A DNA stretch of 64,000 nt from Clostridiisalibacter paucivorans DSM 22131 (GTDB lineage: Bacteria > Bacillota > Clostridia > Tissierellales > Clostridiisalibacteraceae), in NCBI RefSeq assembly GCF_000620125.1, contig NZ_JHVL01000002.1, positions 62,001 through 126,000 of the forward strand, in the 5' to 3' direction. The stretch's first letter is position 1. The number at the start of each line of letters is the position of its first letter. A program made the position numbers and the translations under genes. The notes under the pieces were generated by a model. It did no database searches. It saw only the letters and a program-made list of their open reading frames with translations, and was not told where the DNA came from. Positions 7,259-49,673 of this stretch are shown one piece after another.

Positions 7259-7355
7259 TGGCGGGAATATGTGGGAATCGAACCCACCCAGGACGCTCTT
7301 AACGCCCCGTAATGGTTTTGAAGACCACAGGACACACCAGCACCCATCTACTCCC
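7259..7355 (-). tRNA. selC: tRNA-Sec (anticodon TCA)
   Basis: The 97-nt gene folds as a bacterial selenocysteine tRNA. The anticodon stem and loop contain GGTCTTCAAAACC, giving anticodon TCA, which reads UGA. There is an extended variable arm, the T arm GTGGGTTCGATTCCCAC, an acceptor of about 8 bp starting GGGAG, and an encoded CCA. The long acceptor plus large variable arm separates it from a suppressor tRNA. It supplies the window's selA, selB and selD system and has its own promoter and terminator. Confidence 0.95.
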
Positions 7356-11435: not shown

Positions 11436-13352
11436 CTAATCTTTTTTATATAATATTCTTTTATTTCCATCACGAACAGTAATTTTTTTACTATCAAAAT
11501 GCTCTAATAAATATATAGCATATTTTCTATTAGTTTTTAAATAATCCCTAAATTGCCCCACTGTAATAAATCCATCGTTATTAATAACGTACTTTAACTC
11601 TTTTATTGCAGATTTATAAAAATCTTTGTGCATAATCATATCTTCTTTAATTGAAACTAGAGTACCTTCTAGAATCATTGCTAATAAAACCTCTTCTACA
11701 TCATCTTTATTATATCTCACCTCTGCTAAAATCTCATCTCTATTTTTAGGACAATATCCAAAGGATTTATATATTTGTTCCAAATTTTCTTTTATCTCTA
11801 AATAAATACCTTTGTATTTAACTTTAAAACCTTTCAGACAAATATATTCCCTCTTCTGCTCTATTTTGTTCTGCTTATTCATCTTCTCAAAAAACTTATC
11901 ACTGATATTTATTGTCGCATTAGATAAAAATCTACTTCTTAACTCTTCCTTAGAAATACCTTGTCTTAGTGGATATTTTTCATGATACTTCTTAATATAG
12001 TCTATTATTTTTTTTGAAACTTCCATAAAATATTCCATATGTATTACATATGTATTTTTAATATCATCAAATATAATTATAACATTTTTTTCTATTAAGA
12101 TTTTCAATATATCAATTAATTCTTCTTCTATTAATAGGGTTTGTGAAGATATATATGATAATAATGGAAATTTGTCACTATTTCTTTTTATTACAGACTC
12201 AATTATATCCTCATTATCTCCCTTTTCCTTTATGCCAAATTCTTTCAATATTTCTTTATTAAATCTTTTCCTTTTTGGTGGATTACTATCCAATATTTCT
12301 CCCCCACCTATGGTTACCATTGGAGAATAAAATCTTATTATAAACCTGTCTCCTTGACTAGCTACAGTTTTATCTTCTAGTCTAAGTTGAGCATAACAAC
12401 TTTCACCTGGCAATAACATATCTCTATCCAATAATATTACCCTACACAATATTTCTTTAGTACCTAAATACAATCTTACTCTATTACGATTTTCTATTAT
12501 TCTAGGAGAATCTTTTAATAATTCTAATTTAACATCTAACATCATAGTCGGAAGCATTGAATCCACAGGTCCCATTACATCTCCTCTATCTATATGGGAT
12601 TTTTTTATACCTGTTATATTTATGGCAACCCTTTGTCCAGGATACGTGATTTTCATATCCTCTCCATGTACCTGTATAGACCTTACTCTACAAATCTTTT
12701 CTTTAGGAAAAATTTCCATTTCGTCTCCCACATTTATCTTTCCAGATAACTGTGTCCCTGTTATTATGGTTCCAAATCCTTTTAAGGTAAATGCCCTATC
12801 AATTGGTACCCTAGCAATCCCTTTAGCACTAATATCCTTTAAGGAATTTGCCATCTTATCTATTTCTTCTATTATTTTTTTTATTCCTATTTTACTAATA
12901 GAAGATACCTCTACTATTGGACTCCCTTCCAAAAAAGTTCCCTTTATATATTCCTCTGTATCTTCTCTAACCAATTTAATCCACTCTTTATCCACCATAT
13001 CTACTTTTGTCAATGCTATAATACCATTTTTCACCTTCAATATATTCAATATATCTAAATGCTCTTTAGTTTGAGGCATAACTCCTTCATCTGCAGCTAT
13101 GACTAATACGACCATGTCCATACCTACTACTCCAGCAAGCATATTTTTAATAAATTTTTCATGACCTGGAACATCTATTATTCCTGCTCTTTTTCCACTG
13201 GGCAAATCAAAATATGTAAATCCCAATTCGATTGATATACCTCTATTCTTTTCTTCCTTCAATCTATCAGTTTCTCTCCCAGTTAATGCCTTTATTAATG
13301 TACTCTTACCATGGTCTATATGGCCAGCTGTTCCTATTATAACATTTTTCAT
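11436..13352 (-). CDS. selB: Selenocysteine-specific elongation factor SelB
   Basis: SelB carries Sec-tRNA to UGA codons marked by a SECIS hairpin. The 638-residue protein has the GTPase motifs G1 (GHIDHGKST, residues 10-18), G3 (DVPGHEKF) and G4 written TKVD instead of NKxD, as is common in SelB. EF-Tu-like beta-barrel domains follow, including the [15 protein letters not shown] signature. The C-terminal half (about 380-638) is the series of winged helices that bind the SECIS RNA, ending [27 protein letters not shown]. It starts 1 nt from the selA stop codon, so the two are translationally linked. Confidence 0.97.
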
Positions 13353-13353
13353 C

Positions 13354-14790
13354 CTAAAACCCCTTTATATGATGATTACTCAATACCCTTTCAAGTTCAT
13401 ATACTATTATATCAAATTCATCTTCTTTTACAGTTCGTAAATCTATATAAATTTTATCTTTAAATACTCTAACTACCACTGGAATACTTTCTTTCCTTAA
13501 TCTCCTCTCTATTTCAGATGCTGTTAAATCATTTGAAACTAATTCTATAAGTTTTGTTGGTATTTTTTCCAAAGGCAATGCTCCACCACCAACTTGTGAA
13601 AAACCATCTACTATTTTCACATTAATCTTTCCTGTAAGTTTATCAATTATCTTATTAGATAATATATTTGCCTTTAAAGAGACCTCTTCTATAGACATGG
13701 TCAACATCTTTAAAGTAGGTATTTTCTTTATCGCTTTCTCTTCATCTAAGTATAGTCTCAATATTAATTCCAACGTGGCTATTGTGAACTTATCTACCCT
13801 TAAAGCTCTAGTTAGAGGATTTTTTTTCATTTTATCTATATATTTTTTTTTGCCTACTATTATACCAGCCTGAGGCCCTCCTAATAACTTGTCTCCACTA
13901 AACGTAACTATATCTATCCCTGATTCTATAGACTCTTTTACAGTGGGCTCATGCTCTATGCCATATTTCTCCAAATCTACCAATACTCCACTGCCTATAT
14001 CCTCTATTACAGGTATTTCAAATTTCTCTCCTATTTTAACTAACTCTTCAATACTTACTGATTTAGTGAAACCTAAAATTCTATAATTGCTTGTGTGGAC
14101 CTTAAGTAATGCACCTGTTTCTTCTCCTATACCATTTGTATAATCTTTCAAATGGGTTTTGTTTGTGGTTCCCACATCTATTAATTTAGCTCCACTCTGT
14201 TCCATAACATCAGGAACTCTAAATGAACCTCCTATTTCAACTAATTCACCTCTAGAGACGATAACTTCCTTGTCCTTTGCCATAGTATTAAGTACAAGCA
14301 TAACTGCAGCAGCATTATTATTTACTACTAATGCTGCCTCAGCACCTGTAATTCTAGTTATAATACCTTCAATATGATCATATCTTAAACCTCTACTACC
14401 TTCTAATAAATTGTATTCTAAGTTAGAATAATTTGTAACCACATCTACTACATATTCCATTATTTCTTTATCTATAAGAGATCTCCCTAAATTAGTATGA
14501 ATTATAGTCCCCGTAGCATTTATAACCCTTTTAAATTTAATCTCCATTTTATTTTGGGCTTTATTAGATATTATATCTTCTATATTGTTAACCATGTTTT
14601 TTAATTGTTGTAATTCTATATTATTAGATAAAATATCTTTTCTTAAACCTTCTATTGTTTCTCTAATTGTGTTCACTACCACATTTCTAGGTATATCTTT
14701 CAATAGATCTATTATTTTATTGGAATTCAATAGATTATCTACCTTTGGAAGTATTTTAAACATGTCTTGTCTATTAGACACAAAAATCAT
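13354..14790 (-). CDS. selA: L-seryl-tRNA(Sec) selenium transferase SelA
   Basis: SelA converts seryl-tRNA(Sec) to selenocysteinyl-tRNA(Sec) using selenophosphate and PLP. The 478-residue protein has an N-terminal tRNA-binding helical region, the [17 protein letters not shown] motif (88-103), and PLP lysine Lys301 in [12 protein letters not shown]. The C-terminal small domain has [10 protein letters not shown]. Length and motifs are standard. The gene lies between selD and selB in the order selD-selA-selB, and its substrates come from the neighbouring selD and from the tRNA-Sec 6 kb away. Confidence 0.97.
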
Positions 14791-14815
14791 TTCCTTTCAT
14801 CATAAAATTTCAAAA

Positions 14816-15856
14816 TTATACAACTAAAATGGGATAATCTCCTTTTTCTAAAACCCTTCCTATAGTCCAATATTTTATTTCATGCTTTTTAAAATTTTGT
14901 TTCAGATCTTCTAAATTTGATTCATTTACTGATAAGAGTAATCCTCCAGATGTCTGGGGATCAAACATAATATCTCTATATGTCTCTGATATATCATCTG
15001 AAAACATAACATTATCTCCAATATATTTCTTATTAGAATAGGCACCCCCAGGGACAAGACCCATATTGGCCAATGAAATAGCCTCTTCTATTATAGGTAT
15101 TTCTTTGTGGTCAAATTCTAATGTTACAGAACTTCCCTGGGCCATTTCAAGGCCATGACCCAAAAGACCAAAACCTGTTACATCTGTACAGCTATTAACT
15201 TCTACTCCCTTTGTAGCTTCCATAGCATATTTATTTAACAAAATCATTGTCTCTATTGCATTTTTATAAGTATCATTACTTACCATATCTGCCTTTATAC
15301 CTGTATTTATTATACCTAATCCTAAAGGTTTAGTAAGTATTAAATAATCCCCTTTCTTAGCACTGCTATTTTTAAGTATATCATTGGGATTAGCAAAACC
15401 TGTAACAGTAAGTCCATATTTAGGTTCATCATCTTCTACTGTATGTCCCCCAACAATAATTGCCCCTGCTTCTGTCACCTTGTCATGACCACCCTTTAGT
15501 ATCTTGGTCATAACATCAGTTGATAGACAGTTTGGAAAACATATAATATTCATTGCCAATTTGGGCTGACCTCCCATTGCATATATATCACTTAATGCAT
15601 TTGCTGCTGCTATCTGGCCAAATATATAAGGGTCATCTACTACTGGAGTAAAAAAATCTATAGTCTGTATAATAGCAGTATCATCATTTAATTTATATAC
15701 TGCTCCATCATCTGAAGTACTTACACCTACCATCAATCTATCATCTTTTATTTCTGGTAATTGACACAGTACCTGTGCCAAGGTCTCAGGACCTATTTTA
15801 GCTGCTCATCCAGAACTCTTGGTTAACTGAGTCAATCTTATTTGCTCCACTGTCAA
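14816..15856 (-). CDS. selD: Selenide, water dikinase SelD, a selenoprotein with Sec17
   Basis: SelD makes selenophosphate from selenide and ATP. The uninterrupted frame begins at 15781, but that start lacks the catalytic N-terminus. Reading through one in-frame TGA (15806-15808) gives LTKSSG-U-AAKIGPETLAQV, the classical active-site motif with selenocysteine where E. coli SelD has Cys17, followed by the conserved Lys. The TTG at 15856 has AAGGAG 8 nt upstream, so UGA is codon 17 of 346 residues. A GTG at 15850 is the alternative start. Later motifs include DFFTPVVDDPY, GGHTVEDDEPKYGL and FDPQTSGGLL. A hairpin 11 nt after UGA fits a bacterial SECIS. It starts beside the stop of the ComEA-like gene. 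Confidence 0.95.
15780..15808 (-). promoter_or_regulatory. Putative SECIS element in selD
   Basis: Eleven nucleotides after the UGA codon, the minus strand has AGGTC-CTGA-GACCT (15781-15794), a 5-bp stem with a 4-nt loop. Flanking GC pairs could extend it. Position and size match bacterial SECIS hairpins, which lie within the coding sequence just 3' of UGA. Confidence 0.75.
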
Positions 15857-42340: not shown

Positions 42341-43369
42341 TTATTTATTTAATCCACTATTAAATAACTCTCTAGCTACATTTACCCCTTTTGTTATTGC
42401 ATCAGAAGTAACTGTAGCTCCAGTTACAGCCTGAATTTCATTGTCATTTGAAGGAGAAGATTTTACAGATACTATTTCACTATCAGCTTTCTTCCCTTCA
42501 TATTGTGCTTGAAATTCTGGCGTAATGGCTTTATCTCCAACACCAGGTGTCTCTTTATGATTTATAACCTTGACACCTGTTATTTTACCTTCTAAAGAAA
42601 TACCAGTCATAATCTCTATATTACCACCATATCCTTCAGTGCCTGTTTCTATTATATATCCTAATACCTCTTCACCATTTAATCCCTTATGTGCTTCAAT
42701 GACTCCTTCAGAAGCACCATCTAATTCCATAACTTCAAAAGACTCTGCATCAGGAAATAGCTCTTTCTTAGCTGATTCGATTTTTTCTTTATTAGCGCTT
42801 TCTACTTTATCTGGGCTAACACCAGTATTAAACAATTCTCTAGCTAAATTTACTCCCTTTGTAACTGCATTTGATGTAATTGTAGCCCCTGTTATGGCTT
42901 GAATTTCATTGTCATTAGATGGAGTAGTTTTTACAACTGTTATTTCATTGTCAACTTTTTTCCCACTATATTGACCTTGGAATTCCACACTGGTTGAATT
43001 AGCCCCAAGACCTGGTGTCTCTTGATGTCCTACAACCTTTACTGCTTTGATTATACCATCAGAAGAAATTCCAGTTATAACTTCTACATTTCCTCCATAT
43101 CCTGAAGTGGCAGTTTTAATAGCAAATCCCACTACTTCTCCACCTTTTAATCCTTTATATGCTTCAATTATTTCCTCTGATGTACCGCTTAACTCAACAG
43201 CTTCAAAAGACTCTGCATCAGAAAGAACTTCTTTTCTAGCAGCCTCACTTTTTGCTGCCTCAACCTCTAATATTTTTTCAGAGGTTATTCCATTAGAAAG
43301 TCCAAGTACAACCGCTGCTACAGCAGTAATTATAAATAATATTAATCCCAATTTAATTATCTCACGCAT
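42341..43369 (-). CDS. rnfG: RnfG with two tandem FMN-binding domains
   Basis: RnfG passes electrons through a covalently bound FMN outside the membrane. This 342-residue protein has one N-terminal membrane helix (about 6-24) and then two copies of the FMN_bind domain (about 38-182 and 195-338). Each ends in a flavinylation motif: TGATIT with Thr163 and TGATVT with Thr319. The repeats are close (SNDNEIQAITGATITS against SNDNEIQAVTGATVTS), which points to a recent duplication. Ordinary RnfG has a single domain and about 180-210 residues. The ApbE flavin transferase needed for attachment is not encoded in the window. Confidence 0.95.
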   Translation of the reverse strand: MREIIKLGLILFIITAVAAVVLGLSNGITSEKILEVEAAKSEAARKEVLSDAESFEAVELSGTSEEIIEAYKGLKGGEVVGFAIKTATSGYGGNVEVITGISSDGIIKAVKVVGHQETPGLGANSTSVEFQGQYSGKKVDNEITVVKTTPSNDNEIQAITGATITSNAVTKGVNLARELFNTGVSPDKVESANKEKIESAKKELFPDAESFEVMELDGASEGVIEAHKGLNGEEVLGYIIETGTEGYGGNIEIMTGISLEGKITGVKVINHKETPGVGDKAITPEFQAQYEGKKADSEIVSVKSSPSNDNEIQAVTGATVTSDAITKGVNVARELFNSGLNK

Positions 43370-44321: not shown

Positions 44322-45644
44322 TTAGCTTTTTCTCCTTTTTGCTATTATTTCTTTCTTTGCTACTCTTATTGATTGAAGTAATGGTCTCTTTGAAGGACAG
44401 ACAAAAGAACAGGAACCACATTCTATACAATCTAAAGCTCTATATCCTTCTGCTTCTTCAAACATTTTCTTTAAGGACAATTTACTTATATTCAATGGTT
44501 GCAAATGCACAGGGCAAATATCTACACATTTACCACATCTTATACAAGGTCCTGGTTCAGGTAACCTAGCATCCTTTTCATTTAACACTAAAATTCCAGA
44601 TGTTCCCTTTATACATGGTATTTCATCACTAGATTGAGCAAGTCCCATCATAGGTCCACCCATAATTAATTTTCCAGGCTTTTCACTATAGCCTCCACAC
44701 TGTTCAATTATTTCTCTAAAAGGTGTTCCTATTTTTGTTATTAAATTTTTAGGTTCTTTAATTGCACTACCCGTAATTGTTGTTATTCTTTCAATTAACG
44801 GCATACCTGTCTGTATTGCAGTAGCAATAGCAGCTGCAGTACCTACATTGTTTACTACTACGCCTACATCCATAGGTAGACCACCAGAAGGCACCTCTCT
44901 TCCAGTAACAGCATTGATTATTCTCTTTTCATCCCCTTGTGGATACTTAGTTTTAAAGGAAACTATTTCAACACTTGAATCATCTTTTGAAGCTTCAACC
45001 ATTTTCGCAATAGCATCAGGTTTATTATTTTCAATACCTATATAACCCTTATCTACTCCCACAGCTTTCATTATAGCCTTTAAACCATATATTACAAGCT
45101 CAGGTTTTTCTAACATAAGTCTATGGTCGGCTGTTAAATATGGTTCACACTCCGCACCATTTAAAACTACAGTATCAATCTTTTTATCTGGCGGTGGAGA
45201 TAGTTTTACATGGGTAGGAAATCCAGCTCCTCCCATTCCTGTTATACCAGCTTCTTTTATTATTGCTAGTATTTCTTCTTTTGATAAAGAGTTTAAATCT
45301 CCTTTAGGCTGAATAGACTCATGAACTTCATTTTGCCCATCAGACTCTATAATAACTGACAACGCTTTTCCAGTGGGTGTAGCAATCTCTGTTATCTTTT
45401 TAACTGTACCAGATACACTGGAATGAATTGGTGCTGAAACAAAAGCCTCTGCTTCACCAATTTTTTGTCCAACTTTCACCTTGTCTCCAACTTTAACTAT
45501 AGGTTGACAAGGAGCTCCTATATGCTGTTGCATAGGAATTTTTACAATTGCAGGATCTTTAGCTTTTTCCACAGAAATATTTTCTGTTTGTTTCTTAAAA
45601 TGTGGTGGATGAACCCCACCCTTAAATGTGAGATCCTTTAACAT
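44322..45644 (-). CDS. rnfC: Rnf complex NADH-reacting subunit RnfC
   Basis: This 440-residue peripheral subunit carries the NADH/FMN site related to NuoF. GGVHPPHFKKQTE is at the N-terminus, MGGAGFPTHVKLSPP is the nucleotide-binding glycine-rich part, and an SLBB-like domain follows. Two [4Fe-4S] motifs come next, CIRCGKCVDICP and CIECGSCSFVCP (about 367-418). It is the first gene of rnfCDGEAB, behind the structured leader. Confidence 0.96.
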   Translation of the reverse strand: MLKDLTFKGGVHPPHFKKQTENISVEKAKDPAIVKIPMQQHIGAPCQPIVKVGDKVKVGQKIGEAEAFVSAPIHSSVSGTVKKITEIATPTGKALSVIIESDGQNEVHESIQPKGDLNSLSKEEILAIIKEAGITGMGGAGFPTHVKLSPPPDKKIDTVVLNGAECEPYLTADHRLMLEKPELVIYGLKAIMKAVGVDKGYIGIENNKPDAIAKMVEASKDDSSVEIVSFKTKYPQGDEKRIINAVTGREVPSGGLPMDVGVVVNNVGTAAAIATAIQTGMPLIERITTITGSAIKEPKNLITKIGTPFREIIEQCGGYSEKPGKLIMGGPMMGLAQSSDEIPCIKGTSGILVLNEKDARLPEPGPCIRCGKCVDICPVHLQPLNISKLSLKKMFEEAEGYRALDCIECGSCSFVCPSKRPLLQSIRVAKKEIIAKRRKS

Positions 45645-45726
45645 TTATTTCACCTCTTATCTATTTATTTTTATTTTGGTTATAATAATATTAGTTAATA
45701 AATATACAATGTAAAATACAAGTATT

Positions 45727-45742
45727 ATTTTGTATACAAAAT
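45727..45742. promoter_or_regulatory. Perfect 16-bp palindrome, possible operator upstream of rnfC
   Basis: ATTTTGTATACAAAAT is a perfect dyad with a GTATAC centre, resembling GntR-type operators (GT-N-TA-N-AC core). It lies between the leader terminator and rnfC. Confidence 0.45.
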
Positions 45743-45753
45743 GTTTTATACAT

Positions 45754-45873
45754 TAAAAAATAACAGAGTCTTTTTGTCCTGCTCAAATATACCTATGTTA
45801 ATAATTTATACATATAAAACCTTTTCATTGTATAATCGTTAAACACTTAGCAGTATTTTAAGCCATCTGTTAC
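45754..45873 (-). ncRNA. Structured leader of the rnf operon, candidate riboswitch or attenuator
   Basis: On the minus strand GTAACAGA (45866-45873) can pair with TCTGTTAT (about 45761-45768) as a closing helix of 8 bp, followed by a run of T (45754-45760). Inside are a CTTA/TAAG hairpin, a longer hairpin built on TTATAC/GTATAA with an inner ATGAAAA/TTTTAT helix, and an unpaired AGCAGGACAAAAAGAC strip before the closing helix. The layout of promoter, about 10 nt, multi-helix junction, U-run, then operon is that of a transcription-controlling riboswitch. I cannot assign a class by eye. Confidence 0.55.
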
Positions 45874-45887
45874 TTTTTTTACAATTC

Positions 45888-45916
45888 ATTATAACACTTA
45901 TATCATTTTTGTACAA
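45888..45916 (-). promoter_or_regulatory. Strong promoter of the rnf leader
   Basis: TTGTAC (45911-45916), a 17-nt spacer and TATAAT (45888-45893) on the minus strand place the RNA start just before the structured leader. Confidence 0.85.
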
Positions 45917-45976: not shown

Positions 45977-46522
45977 TTATATATTATGAATATCTTTTAT
46001 ATTTTCTTCTATATATGTCTTTATCCATAACAGCACATCTATATTATCTATACTTAATTCTTTTAATGTCTTTTTAATTTCTCTAGTGTCAAATTTAAAC
46101 TCTCTATTATTACACTGATGTCTATATACTATGTCTACATCTTTATCTTTATTTAATAAAGAAACTAATGTCTTCCCCATATTGCCCAATGGTGCTCTAT
46201 CTATATGACTATATTTCAAACTAAAGTGCACTTCTGTTCCTTTTCCCAATTCAGAAGATATTTTAAAGTCTCCCTCGCATCTTAGAGCTGCAGCCTTAGT
46301 CAAAGATATGCCCATTCCTACCTTTCTAGTTTTTCTGGAAGTCATAAAAGGATCATCTACTCTTTTTAAAAATTCTTCGTCCATTCCCTTGCCATTGTCC
46401 TCTATATCTACAGTCAATATATCTTTATCTATATTTTCTAATATATTTATTTTTACTAATGTTGCCCCTGCATCATAGGAGTTTTCTACTAGGTCCAATA
46501 TATGAAGTGATAATTCTTTCAT
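45977..46522 (-). CDS. HATPase_c ATP-binding protein of the hydrogenase-like operon
   Basis: This 181-residue protein has a GHKL ATP-binding fold: an N-box (LHILDLVENSYDAGATLVKI), G1 (DIEDNGKGMDEEF) and G2 (GMGISLTKAAALRCEGDFKISSELGKGTEVHFSL). There is no H-box or receiver, so it is not a complete histidine kinase; it resembles the ATP-binding protein routinely encoded with clostridial [FeFe]-hydrogenase operons. Its ATG overlaps the PHP gene stop (ATGA), so the two are co-translated. It is the last gene of the operon before the rnf promoter. Confidence 0.85.
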   Translation of the reverse strand: MKELSLHILDLVENSYDAGATLVKINILENIDKDILTVDIEDNGKGMDEEFLKRVDDPFMTSRKTRKVGMGISLTKAAALRCEGDFKISSELGKGTEVHFSLKYSHIDRAPLGNMGKTLVSLLNKDKDVDIVYRHQCNNREFKFDTREIKKTLKELSIDNIDVLLWIKTYIEENIKDIHNI

Positions 46523-47244
46523 GCTATTATTCCCCCTGTATCTGTAAGATACGTTAACACTGAATTTATATTTAACTGTTCTATATCTATGAAATTAATA
46601 GGCTCATTTATATCTCTTAAATAATGGGCATCAGAGTTTTTTATTATATTGTATTTTGATAAATCTGTATTGAAAATATTATTTTGGTCTTGAAAATATT
46701 TTGACAACTCTACTGTATATATATCTAATCCATCAGGTATAAATCCCAAAACAGCAAGCATACCAAATGACTTTCTATCAATATGAGCAGGCACCATTAC
46801 TCCATTATATTTTTTAACCATATCGTTTATATCATCTAAAGAATATTTGGTACTACTAATCAACAATTTATCTACTTCATTTATTAATTCATCTTCCATG
46901 TCCCTTATTTCTTGATTACCAAAAATTAAAGGATTATTCTTTATATCTGGTAATCCATCATAAATTAAATCTTGAAACTTTATCCCATCATTTAAGTCAT
47001 AAAAATAGCAACATACATGTACTTCTTCTTTAGTAGTCACCTCAATACCTGGAATTACCAATATATCTTTTTCAAGTCCGAGCTTCATTATAGACTCTAC
47101 ATTTAGCATAGAATTATGATCTGTTATAGCTATTATATTTAACCCCTTTATATAACACATGTTTATTATATTATTAGGTGTCATATCAGTATTACCACAA
47201 GGTGATAAGCAAGAATGAATATGCATATCATAGCTAAATTTCAT
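46519..47244 (-). CDS. PHP-domain phosphoesterase-like protein
   Basis: This protein of about 241 residues is a PHP domain: MHIHSCLSPCGN (HxH), NIIAITDHNSM (D, H), a central VIPGIEVTTKEEVHVCCYF (E and H), VPAHIDRKSFG, and NSDAHYLRDI (D-x-H). These are the metal ligands of PHP phosphoesterases. The ATG at 47244 starts 3 bases after the upstream stop and gives the canonical start. The substrate is unknown; in Clostridia it is regularly encoded with DRTGG and hydrogenase-like genes. Confidence 0.88.
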   Translation of the reverse strand: MKFSYDMHIHSCLSPCGNTDMTPNNIINMCYIKGLNIIAITDHNSMLNVESIMKLGLEKDILVIPGIEVTTKEEVHVCCYFYDLNDGIKFQDLIYDGLPDIKNNPLIFGNQEIRDMEDELINEVDKLLISSTKYSLDDINDMVKKYNGVMVPAHIDRKSFGMLAVLGFIPDGLDIYTVELSKYFQDQNNIFNTDLSKYNIIKNSDAHYLRDINEPINFIDIEQLNINSVLTYLTDTGGIIA

Positions 47245-47246
47245 TT

Positions 47247-47579
47247 CTATAATCCCATTTCTTTTAGTTTGCAAGCCAATTCATAGGCACTTAAATCTGA
47301 TTTTAATAATGGAATACCTTCTTCATTCGATTTATTTATTGTGTCTTCATCTATTTCTACCCCTTCAGCTATCAAAACAGCAGAAATATCTACCAATGTG
47401 GCTACTGCCATTACATTTATATGCGTTTGAATTGTTATCCATATATTACTACTTCCTGCTTTAGCCATCACTAAACTTAACAAATCCCCTATATAGACTC
47501 CTTCTACATTTTTATCTATACCAGCGTCACCCGCCACAACTTTCAATCCTAATTCTTTAACTATATCTCTTATAAGCAT
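47247..47579 (-). CDS. DRTGG-domain protein (second copy)
   Basis: This protein of about 110 residues is a single DRTGG-like domain: LIRDIVKELGLKVVAGDAGIDKNVEGVYIGDLLSLVMAKAGSSNIWITIQTH in pieces. DRTGG domains are found N-terminal in HPr kinase and in Pta and are thought to bind ligands; alone they are uncharacterised. The ATG at 47579, one base after the hydrogenase-like stop and with GGGGGG upstream, is preferred over a longer start. It is the smaller of two DRTGG proteins in this operon. Confidence 0.85.
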   Translation of the reverse strand: MLIRDIVKELGLKVVAGDAGIDKNVEGVYIGDLLSLVMAKAGSSNIWITIQTHINVMAVATLVDISAVLIAEGVEIDEDTINKSNEEGIPLLKSDLSAYELACKLKEMGL

Positions 47580-47580
47580 T

Positions 47581-48864
47581 TCAACCCCCCTCATTATCGT
47601 TATTATTATCATTCATAAACATGCAATCATATATATTGGCATAACCTCTAACTATATCTTCTGCTAATGCCCTACAACTAGGAGCACCACATGAGCCACA
47701 ATCAAGACCAGGCAATATATCTAAAATATACTTAAGCTTTTCTATCTTCTTTACTGCTGTTTCAAAATCGTCATCTAACTGCATTATTTCTTTAGGCTTT
47801 AATTCATTTGTCCAGCATACAGCTTTAGTTTTATATAGATCCATTGCATAACTATCTTTTACCTTAGATTTATATTCTTCATTATTTGAAATTTTTCTGA
47901 TTCTACTACTAGCTATAAAAGGATTTTCAACATTCAATGGTCCTCCTACACATCCTCCTATGCATGCATATCCTTCAAAAAAATCTATGTTATTGAGTTT
48001 TCCTAACTCTATTTCTTCTAAAACATCTATTACATTATCTATGCCATCTGCCGAAATATAATTTTTAATGCCTATAGCCTTACTTTGACCTCCAACCGAA
48101 GACCATCCTATGCCAAGATGAGAGCCTTTATTAAACTTGTCATAATCAGTTATATGCTTAGTATTACTCACTATATCACCATAAATCTTCTTTATAGATA
48201 TTGCCCCAGTTAGTTCAGATTTTTCTATTCCTATAGGCTGTTTAATACTGGTTACTTTAGCAGGACAAGGTGTCAAATAAAATACTCCTATATTATCTTC
48301 CTTTATATTATTTTTTTTCATTATCTCTCTTTTCGCCAGCCTTGCAGCAATCTCCATTGGCGATTCTATATTTACTATATTTTTTAATAATGTAGGAAAT
48401 CTTACTTGAATAATCCTTAGTATAGCAGGACACATTGAAGATATAATGGGTTTAGGAATTTTTTCTTTTTCAATAATATTCCTTAATATGATACTAGAAA
48501 TATCTGCAGCAATTCCCTCATCATAGACATAATCAAAACCCATATTTTTTATACCTTGATATACTTTATTCATATCTATATTATCAGTAAATTGCCCATA
48601 CATTGTAGTAGATAATATTGCTATATTCATTTCAAAATCTTGAAGCCTTGATAAATCATCTGTTATTGCATTTTGAGCATGGTATGGACAAACTATAATA
48701 CACTCTCCACAATCTATACATCTTTCTTTAATTATTATTGCCCTTTTATCTCTCACTCTGATAGCCTCCATAGGGCATTTCCTCATACAATGAGTACACC
48801 CTTTACATTTTTCCTCTTCCAAAACAACAGAGTGGAAATATTTATTCATATCTATCACCGCCAT
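47581..48864 (-). CDS. [FeFe]-hydrogenase-like iron-sulfur protein, probably sensory
   Basis: This 427-residue protein has two N-terminal [4Fe-4S] motifs (CKGCTHCMRKCP, CIDCGECIIVCP) and an H-cluster-type domain. A C-terminal FeS domain has CGSCGAPSC followed by Cys414. H-cluster motif L1 reads SSMCP: Cys145 keeps the ligand position, but the preceding proton-relay Cys is Met144. L2 reads LTPCPAK (Cys200, Lys203) and L3 reads GYACIGGCVGG (Cys301, Cys305). So the four cluster ligands survive and the proton shuttle is lost, as in proposed sensory hydrogenases. No PAS domain is fused. It sits between two DRTGG/ATPase gene pairs. Confidence 0.85.
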   Translation of the reverse strand: MAVIDMNKYFHSVVLEEEKCKGCTHCMRKCPMEAIRVRDKRAIIIKERCIDCGECIIVCPYHAQNAITDDLSRLQDFEMNIAILSTTMYGQFTDNIDMNKVYQGIKNMGFDYVYDEGIAADISSIILRNIIEKEKIPKPIISSMCPAILRIIQVRFPTLLKNIVNIESPMEIAARLAKREIMKKNNIKEDNIGVFYLTPCPAKVTSIKQPIGIEKSELTGAISIKKIYGDIVSNTKHITDYDKFNKGSHLGIGWSSVGGQSKAIGIKNYISADGIDNVIDVLEEIELGKLNNIDFFEGYACIGGCVGGPLNVENPFIASSRIRKISNNEEYKSKVKDSYAMDLYKTKAVCWTNELKPKEIMQLDDDFETAVKKIEKLKYILDILPGLDCGSCGAPSCRALAEDIVRGYANIYDCMFMNDNNNDNEGG

Positions 48865-48874
48865 TTATTATATA

Positions 48875-49309
48875 CTATTTAATTAGTATTCTAATATATA
48901 CTTCCGTTCCTTGTCCCTCTTTCGATTTTATATCAAATATATCAGCACATCTCTTAATATTTGGTAACCCCATACCTGCACCAAATCCCAATTCTCGCAC
49001 TTCATTAGGTGCTGTAGAATATCCTTCTTCCATAGCTAAATCTATATCTGGTATTCCAGGACCAATGTCCTTAGATAAAATTTCTATCTCTTTTGGAGAA
49101 ATTATAACTGATATATTGCCACCATTTGAATGTATTACAAGATTCATTTCTGCTTCATATGTGGCTATAGATACCCTCCTTGTCACATCTGCATTTATAC
49201 CTAATTGTTTCAATATTTTTTTCACATTACTAGAAGCTTCTCCAGCCTGTGTGAAATCATTACGAACAATCTTGTATTCAAGCTTAATAGAATTATTTTC
49301 TACTCTCAT
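48875..49309 (-). CDS. Anti-sigma-like HATPase_c protein of the hydrogenase-like operon
   Basis: This 144-residue protein is a SpoIIAB/RsbW-like ATP-binding domain: AGEASSNVKKILKQLGINADVTRRVSIATYEAEMNLVIHSNGG (N-box), DIGPGIPDIDLAMEEGYSTAPNEVRELGFGAGMGLPNIKRCAD (G1 and G2). Such domains act as serine kinases or anti-sigma factors, but no sigma or anti-sigma-antagonist gene is adjacent. It overlaps the first DRTGG gene by 17 nt and precedes the hydrogenase-like gene. Confidence 0.85.
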   Translation of the reverse strand: MRVENNSIKLEYKIVRNDFTQAGEASSNVKKILKQLGINADVTRRVSIATYEAEMNLVIHSNGGNISVIISPKEIEILSKDIGPGIPDIDLAMEEGYSTAPNEVRELGFGAGMGLPNIKRCADIFDIKSKEGQGTEVYIRILIK

Positions 49310-49673
49310 CTAAGACTTTGCTCCTCCCTGACTCTACACCTGTCAATCCTTTTTCATATAATTTCCCCGATGCAGTATAAAGTATATAATCTGTTTTCAT
49401 TATAGTAAAATTATTCCTTTTTCCTAGTTCCAATACTTGTTTGTTAGGTGTTTTTCCCCTTACAAAAACTATTGCAAATAAATCTATCATCTCTGCCGTT
49501 CTTATAACCTGCGGATTTGTCAGTCCAGTTAAAAGTATTGTGGGGCCGTCTACAAAAGCCAATACATCGCTCATGAGATCAGAGCCAAAGGCCTTTGTTA
49601 CTTCTCTGTCTAGAAACTCTTCGCCAGTTAAGACTTCAGCATTTAATATTTCCTTTATTTCTCTTAATTTCAT
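49293..49673 (-). CDS. DRTGG-domain protein (first gene of the hydrogenase-like operon)
   Basis: This 126-residue DRTGG domain contains MKLREIKEILNAEVLTGEEFLDREVTKAFGSDLMSDVLAFV in pieces and TGLTNPQVIRTAEMIDLFAIVFVRGKTPNKQVLELGKRNN. It is the promoter-proximal gene of the six-gene set running to 45977. By analogy DRTGG may sense a nucleotide or other small ligand; this is inference. The ribosome site GGGGTG lies about 11 nt from the ATG. Confidence 0.85.
   Translation of the reverse strand: MKLREIKEILNAEVLTGEEFLDREVTKAFGSDLMSDVLAFVDGPTILLTGLTNPQVIRTAEMIDLFAIVFVRGKTPNKQVLELGKRNNFTIMKTDYILYTASGKLYEKGLTGVESGRSKVLDESRK

Follow-up and report, generated by a model that had tools for sequence, protein, structure and literature searches.

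The segment at positions 45754-45916 of the 64,000-nucleotide stretch of Clostridiisalibacter paucivorans DSM 22131 DNA analyzed here (the window) precedes the rnf operon on the minus strand, and it raises the question of whether the RNA made from it controls rnf expression and, if so, in what manner. In many anaerobes Rnf is the main energy coupler, and little has been described of how it is regulated in this group. The first-pass annotation of the window had read the segment as a riboswitch or attenuator, with sodium, flavin, redox and nucleotide signals as possible ligands. A U-tailed, promoter-proximal hairpin, together with the site TTGTATACAA conserved across families, would provide two testable control points for the operon.

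The rnf promoter and the fold of the leader RNA

The first gene of the operon, rnfC (44322-45644, minus strand, start at 45644), encodes a protein with RnfC_N and Complex1_51K domains, and its ribosome-binding site AAGAGGTG (45651-45658, minus strand) resembles the AGAGGTG found in most relatives. Upstream of it, on the same strand, a -35 hexamer TTGTAC (45911-45916) and a -10 hexamer TATAAT (45888-45893) are separated by 17 nt, and a TGT directly 5' of the latter makes it an extended -10 element; the likely transcript start is at about 45882-45880. The near-consensus promoter that had been proposed is therefore present, on the minus strand, and an equivalent form occurs upstream of rnfC throughout the order. 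RnfC is present in 245 of the order's 249 genomes, and nearly all of the 110 rnfC upstream regions that we extracted from them contain a matching, high-scoring extended -10 promoter, which strongly supports the reading of this element as the rnf promoter. The segment is best explained as the start of the rnf mRNA, behind a strong extended -10 promoter.

The leader is predicted to fold into one long imperfect hairpin that runs into a run of six U residues, by which its closing helix is terminated. The 5' arm of this helix, AAAAAGUAACAGA (45866-45878, minus strand), starts about 3 nt past the likely transcript start, and the 3' arm, UCUGUUAUUUUUU (45755-45767, minus strand), includes the U-run. 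The 8-bp helix noted previously (GTAACAGA with TCTGTTAT) is present, its length having been understated: when the A-run and U-run are counted it extends to 13 bp, with pair probabilities of 0.81-1.0. The outer helix has the same starting place as the hairpins of related leaders, and its 3' end lies in UUAUUUUUU. The internal hairpins and the U-run ahead of rnfC were likewise recovered, and the best-determined inner helix is located at about 45806-45835 on the minus strand (core pairs 0.9-1.0, outer pairs 0.5-0.8). The interior also admits two folds of nearly equal energy (-27.5 and -27.3).

The 131-nt element has a minimum free energy of -27.5 kcal/mol, compared with -16.6 +/- 3.0 in dinucleotide shuffles (z -3.6; -3.78 with a separate tool), and only 2 of 600 such shuffles are as stable. 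Among the 792 windows of the 64 kb with matching GC content, only 8 reach this stability. The closing helix on its own is less special, an equally strong contiguous helix being found in 15 of 400 shuffled leaders, and it gains weight from its placement, one end being at the transcript start and the other at the U-run. The fold modestly exceeds what is expected by chance. A hairpin followed by a U-rich tail, as in a terminator or attenuator, is found between the promoter and the first gene. A simple scan of the locus for compact terminators called none, because the A-U rich outer stem encloses a loop of about 98 nt.

The features that would make attenuation a regulated process (viz. an antiterminator fold or a leader peptide) were not observed in the leader. 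No antiterminator competes with the closing helix: blocking the 5' arm leaves a fold about 10 kcal weaker, and upon refolding with its pairing to the 5' arm forbidden the 3' arm finds no comparable new partner. The short ORFs present have no ribosome-binding site, and for this reason the 11-codon ORF encoding MKRFYMYKLLT was rejected as a leader peptide.

Known RNA families and related rnf leaders

The Rfam search that the first-pass annotation had suggested assigned the leader to no family. At gathering score, Rfam 15 provided no riboswitch class in the window and no match for the leader, and with E values up to 10 the leader matched only three unrelated families, the Na+-I (DUF1646) class that had been put forward not being among them. 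Forty loci carrying the rnfC leaders of relatives yielded, at gathering score, one tRNA and nothing else. A covariance model (R1) built from the window's leader recovered only the leader itself in its own genome (E up to 10) and detected no second copy in the order (119 other genomes) or in a class sample (290 other genomes); when run unfiltered on the leader loci of relatives, its other matches were short A/T hairpins. The reach of a model made from one sequence is limited, so that distant homologues could be missed, and the window's genome is the sole representative of its family among the genomes compared. A DNA search of 60 relatives gave short A+T matches only, and local alignment of the element with every rnf leader produced an unconvincing best z of about 3.2 in some 200 comparisons. 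The strip AGCAGGACAAAAAGAC (45768-45783, minus strand), previously described as conserved-looking, is kept in none of the related leaders found, with no counterpart being detected by covariance-model searches or local alignment; these searches found no homologue of the leader element, and the conservation of the strip is unsupported.

A hairpin at this position recurs across the order. In a position comparison anchored on the -10 element and covering 39 genera, the local fold energy of the first ~50 nt past the -10 has a mean of about -7.9 kcal compared with about -3.6 elsewhere, and 51% of the genera are at or below -7 kcal just past the -10 versus about 8% at other positions; control promoters, a small set of which only 11-13 were usable, average -3.3 kcal at the same place. 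Compact hairpins with a G+C core are found in 30 of the 110 leaders (2.8 +/- 1.5 in shuffled sequences), and their tails are 58% T compared with 36% in shuffles. The hairpin sequences differ from family to family. Six families (viz. f5, f7, f8, f10, f11, and f13) share related stems (GACCC/GGGUC, AACCC/GGGUU, and AGCCC/GGGCU), which form a compact RNCCC/GGGNY hairpin located directly past the rnf promoter and followed by a U-rich tail; compensatory changes distinguish the hairpins of different families (e.g., L035, L038, L045, L056, and L059). Among 13 distinct stems from these families both sides change at 6 of 8 pairs, and the stem covariation score is 0.606, a value inflated by the selection of arms for their complementarity, compared with 0.273 for shuffled and at most 0.187 for slid arms. 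Because a MAFFT alignment of whole hairpins shifted the arms by one column, the pair counts were made on arms anchored at the loop, AAAA standing in for the loop itself. This hairpin is a better supported leader RNA element than that of the window.

The leaders also vary in other ways. The leader of family f14 contains a textbook terminator with U7, many genomes of family f19 have short leaders that mostly have no hairpin, the tails of f8 and f11 make poor U-tracts, and in several relatives a lower stem pairs an A-rich 5' end with a U-rich tail. The window's leader does not contain the RNCCC/GGGNY form (CCC/GGG by the loop, within ~30 nt of the -10), and its hairpin resembles those that recur in relatives by its position and U-rich tail but has a different sequence.

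Possible functions of the leader hairpin

The reading that we tentatively favor, and that we would put close to an even prospect, is that the window's hairpin is a lineage-specific form of the promoter-proximal leader hairpin common before rnf, acting as an aptamer-free partial terminator or pause. Transcription would begin at the strong extended -10 promoter, the first ~125 nt would form one long imperfect hairpin as they are transcribed, and the outer helix would close while RNA polymerase is making the U-run; by causing partial, factor-independent termination or a pause, the hairpin could then lower basal rnf transcription. The description attenuator-like is reasonable given that hairpins with U-rich tails recur across the order between the promoter and rnfC. 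Because no homologue was detectable, the membership of the window's hairpin in this recurring group is based on position and form, and we infer, from that resemblance, that it may do the same job as the hairpins of its relatives, that it may terminate transcription and that its effect may be regulated. Terminator sequences often drift while their position is kept, and aptamers keep their core. About half of the genera and many f19 genomes have no strong hairpin, and thus rnf expression does not need one.

An attenuator-like role is more likely than ligand sensing, and its main rival is stabilization of the 5' end, in which the long stem would shield the rnf mRNA from exonucleases that attack its 5' end and the U-run would be incidental. 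This alternative, which we consider possible if somewhat unlikely, would account for a long co-folded duplex (-27.5 kcal) beginning so close to the transcript start, for the pairing of A-rich 5' ends with U-rich tails in several relatives, and for the poor U-tracts of f8 and f11; stabilization alone, however, would not need the T enrichment seen past the G+C stems or the U7 terminator of f14. A terminator marking an operon boundary is distinctly unlikely. Such an element would stop transcripts arriving from the upstream regulatory cluster, the rnf promoter being embedded ahead of it, and the gene at 45977-46522, upstream of the promoter, does run in the same direction with no terminator called in between. 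A terminator sited past the promoter would, however, cut rnf transcripts too, and the hairpin is still found past the rnf promoter in f7 and f13, two families with an apparently different gene upstream of rnfC (one whose C-terminal peptide matches DNA polymerase IV of the window). It is also quite improbable that the fold is a functionless product of chance, its A-run/U-run helix having arisen fortuitously in a leader rich in A+T, and that any regulation comes from a protein acting at the palindrome at 45728-45741 or at the promoter. The frequency of equally strong helices among shuffled leaders and the lack of conservation of the element are compatible with chance, and the parts of the leader that relatives do share are the palindrome and the promoter; against it, the total fold energy surpasses 598 of 600 shuffles and the helix starts where the transcript does and ends exactly at the U-run.

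The suggestion that the internal hairpins form an orphan aptamer, through which an ion, flavin, nucleotide or redox signal would gate the closing helix, we regard as very unlikely. The proposal has in its favor that the 125-nt leader is structured, admits two inner folds of almost the same energy and lies ahead of an ion pump. Ligand gating is made less likely by the absence of an Rfam match, of a conserved core and of a homologue (one copy among the hundreds of genomes searched), by the lack of a mutually exclusive antiterminator or other alternative pairing that would free the closing helix, and by the unrelated leader sequences of relatives, unlike those of known aptamers. Sensing of sodium or another small molecule by the leader is unsupported. 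Of the earlier proposal, an rnf promoter and leader stand and an attenuator is plausible, given the recurrence of the hairpin, whereas the riboswitch is not supported. It is similarly improbable, to a high degree, that promoter-proximal attenuators, fast-diverging in sequence but constant in position and form, govern the order's rnf operons and that the terminator loop has, in this lineage, expanded to sense the state of the Rnf pump or of the redox pool, either as a new riboswitch or as an element read by a protein.

Several known systems can be compared with the leader. The Na+-I riboswitch, like the window's leader, is a U-run leader RNA before an ion-transport gene. In the Na+-I class, two stems carrying strictly conserved nucleotides make up the aptamer, and the terminator is mutually exclusive with stem P2 (PMC9337991), whereas no such exclusion was found upon refolding of the window's leader; the Na+-I report makes no mention of an Rnf operon (PMC9337991). 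Promoter-proximal intrinsic terminators and attenuators share with it the hairpin and U-run before the first gene, an arrangement that recurs in the order's rnf leaders, but the window differs from the usual examples in its 98-nt structured loop and A-U rich outer stem, and from attenuators in that the analysis identified neither an antiterminator nor a binding protein, nor a leader peptide preceded by a ribosome-binding site. Stem-loops that stabilize the 5' ends of Gram-positive mRNAs likewise place a stable duplex at the very start of the RNA, whereas the window's hairpin contains a U-run. No description of an attenuator or similar mechanism in an rnf leader was found in the literature searched. 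In Clostridium ljungdahlii, the translation efficiency of rnfC is 0.1 on fructose and 0.9-1.3 on gases (PMC6203783). This parallels our reading in that expression is strongly adjusted after the start of transcription, and leader-level control of rnf would therefore not be out of place; the effect there is translational, the part of that report consulted describes no leader structure, and the species lies outside the order studied here (PMC6203783).

The palindrome near rnfC and the neighboring genes

The palindrome TTTTGTATACAAAA (45728-45741, minus strand) starts about 14 nt beyond the hairpin, outside the positions marked in the first-pass annotation; it is probably a protein-binding site, for which GntR is one candidate reader. 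The site TTGTATACAA occurs exactly in 14 of the 110 rnfC upstream regions, compared with 0.14% expected from shuffles, usually about 35-95 nt ahead of the start codon. The form TGTATACA is mostly separated from the start codon by 35-58 nt (by 90 nt in the window and about 70 nt in f10), and in some families it is found also, or instead, just past the transcript start. Sites of these two forms are strongly over-represented in the rnf leaders of the order, at a fairly constant distance to rnfC. A genome-wide regulon for TTGTATACAA in the window's genome was considered and rejected (14 sites versus 11 for a reversed control, with no clear common function), and a literature search on the site returned no relevant paper. 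In four Peptostreptococcaceae leaders (L072, L073, L076, and L081) another palindrome, TTAACAATTGTTAA or a close variant, is located upstream of the rnf -10-like region; it appears to resemble Rex half-sites.

The cluster directly upstream of rnf (45977-49673, minus strand) encodes, according to Pfam, two HATPase_c proteins, one PHP-domain protein, two DRTGG proteins and one iron-hydrogenase-like protein with FeS domains, and is a candidate redox-signalling module in terms of its domain content. The same HATPase gene apparently precedes rnfC in several related families. RnfG usually has one FMN-binding region. The translation of the 342-aa rnfG-like protein (42341-43369, minus strand) apparently contains two in tandem, with one GAT-type threonine motif per copy (ITGATITSNAV and VTGATVTSDAI). 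Elsewhere in the window, an Rfam match identifies a selenocysteine tRNA (7263-7355), and translations of genes near it, from 11436-15781 (minus strand), look like SelB, SelA, and SelD; the organism apparently makes selenoproteins.
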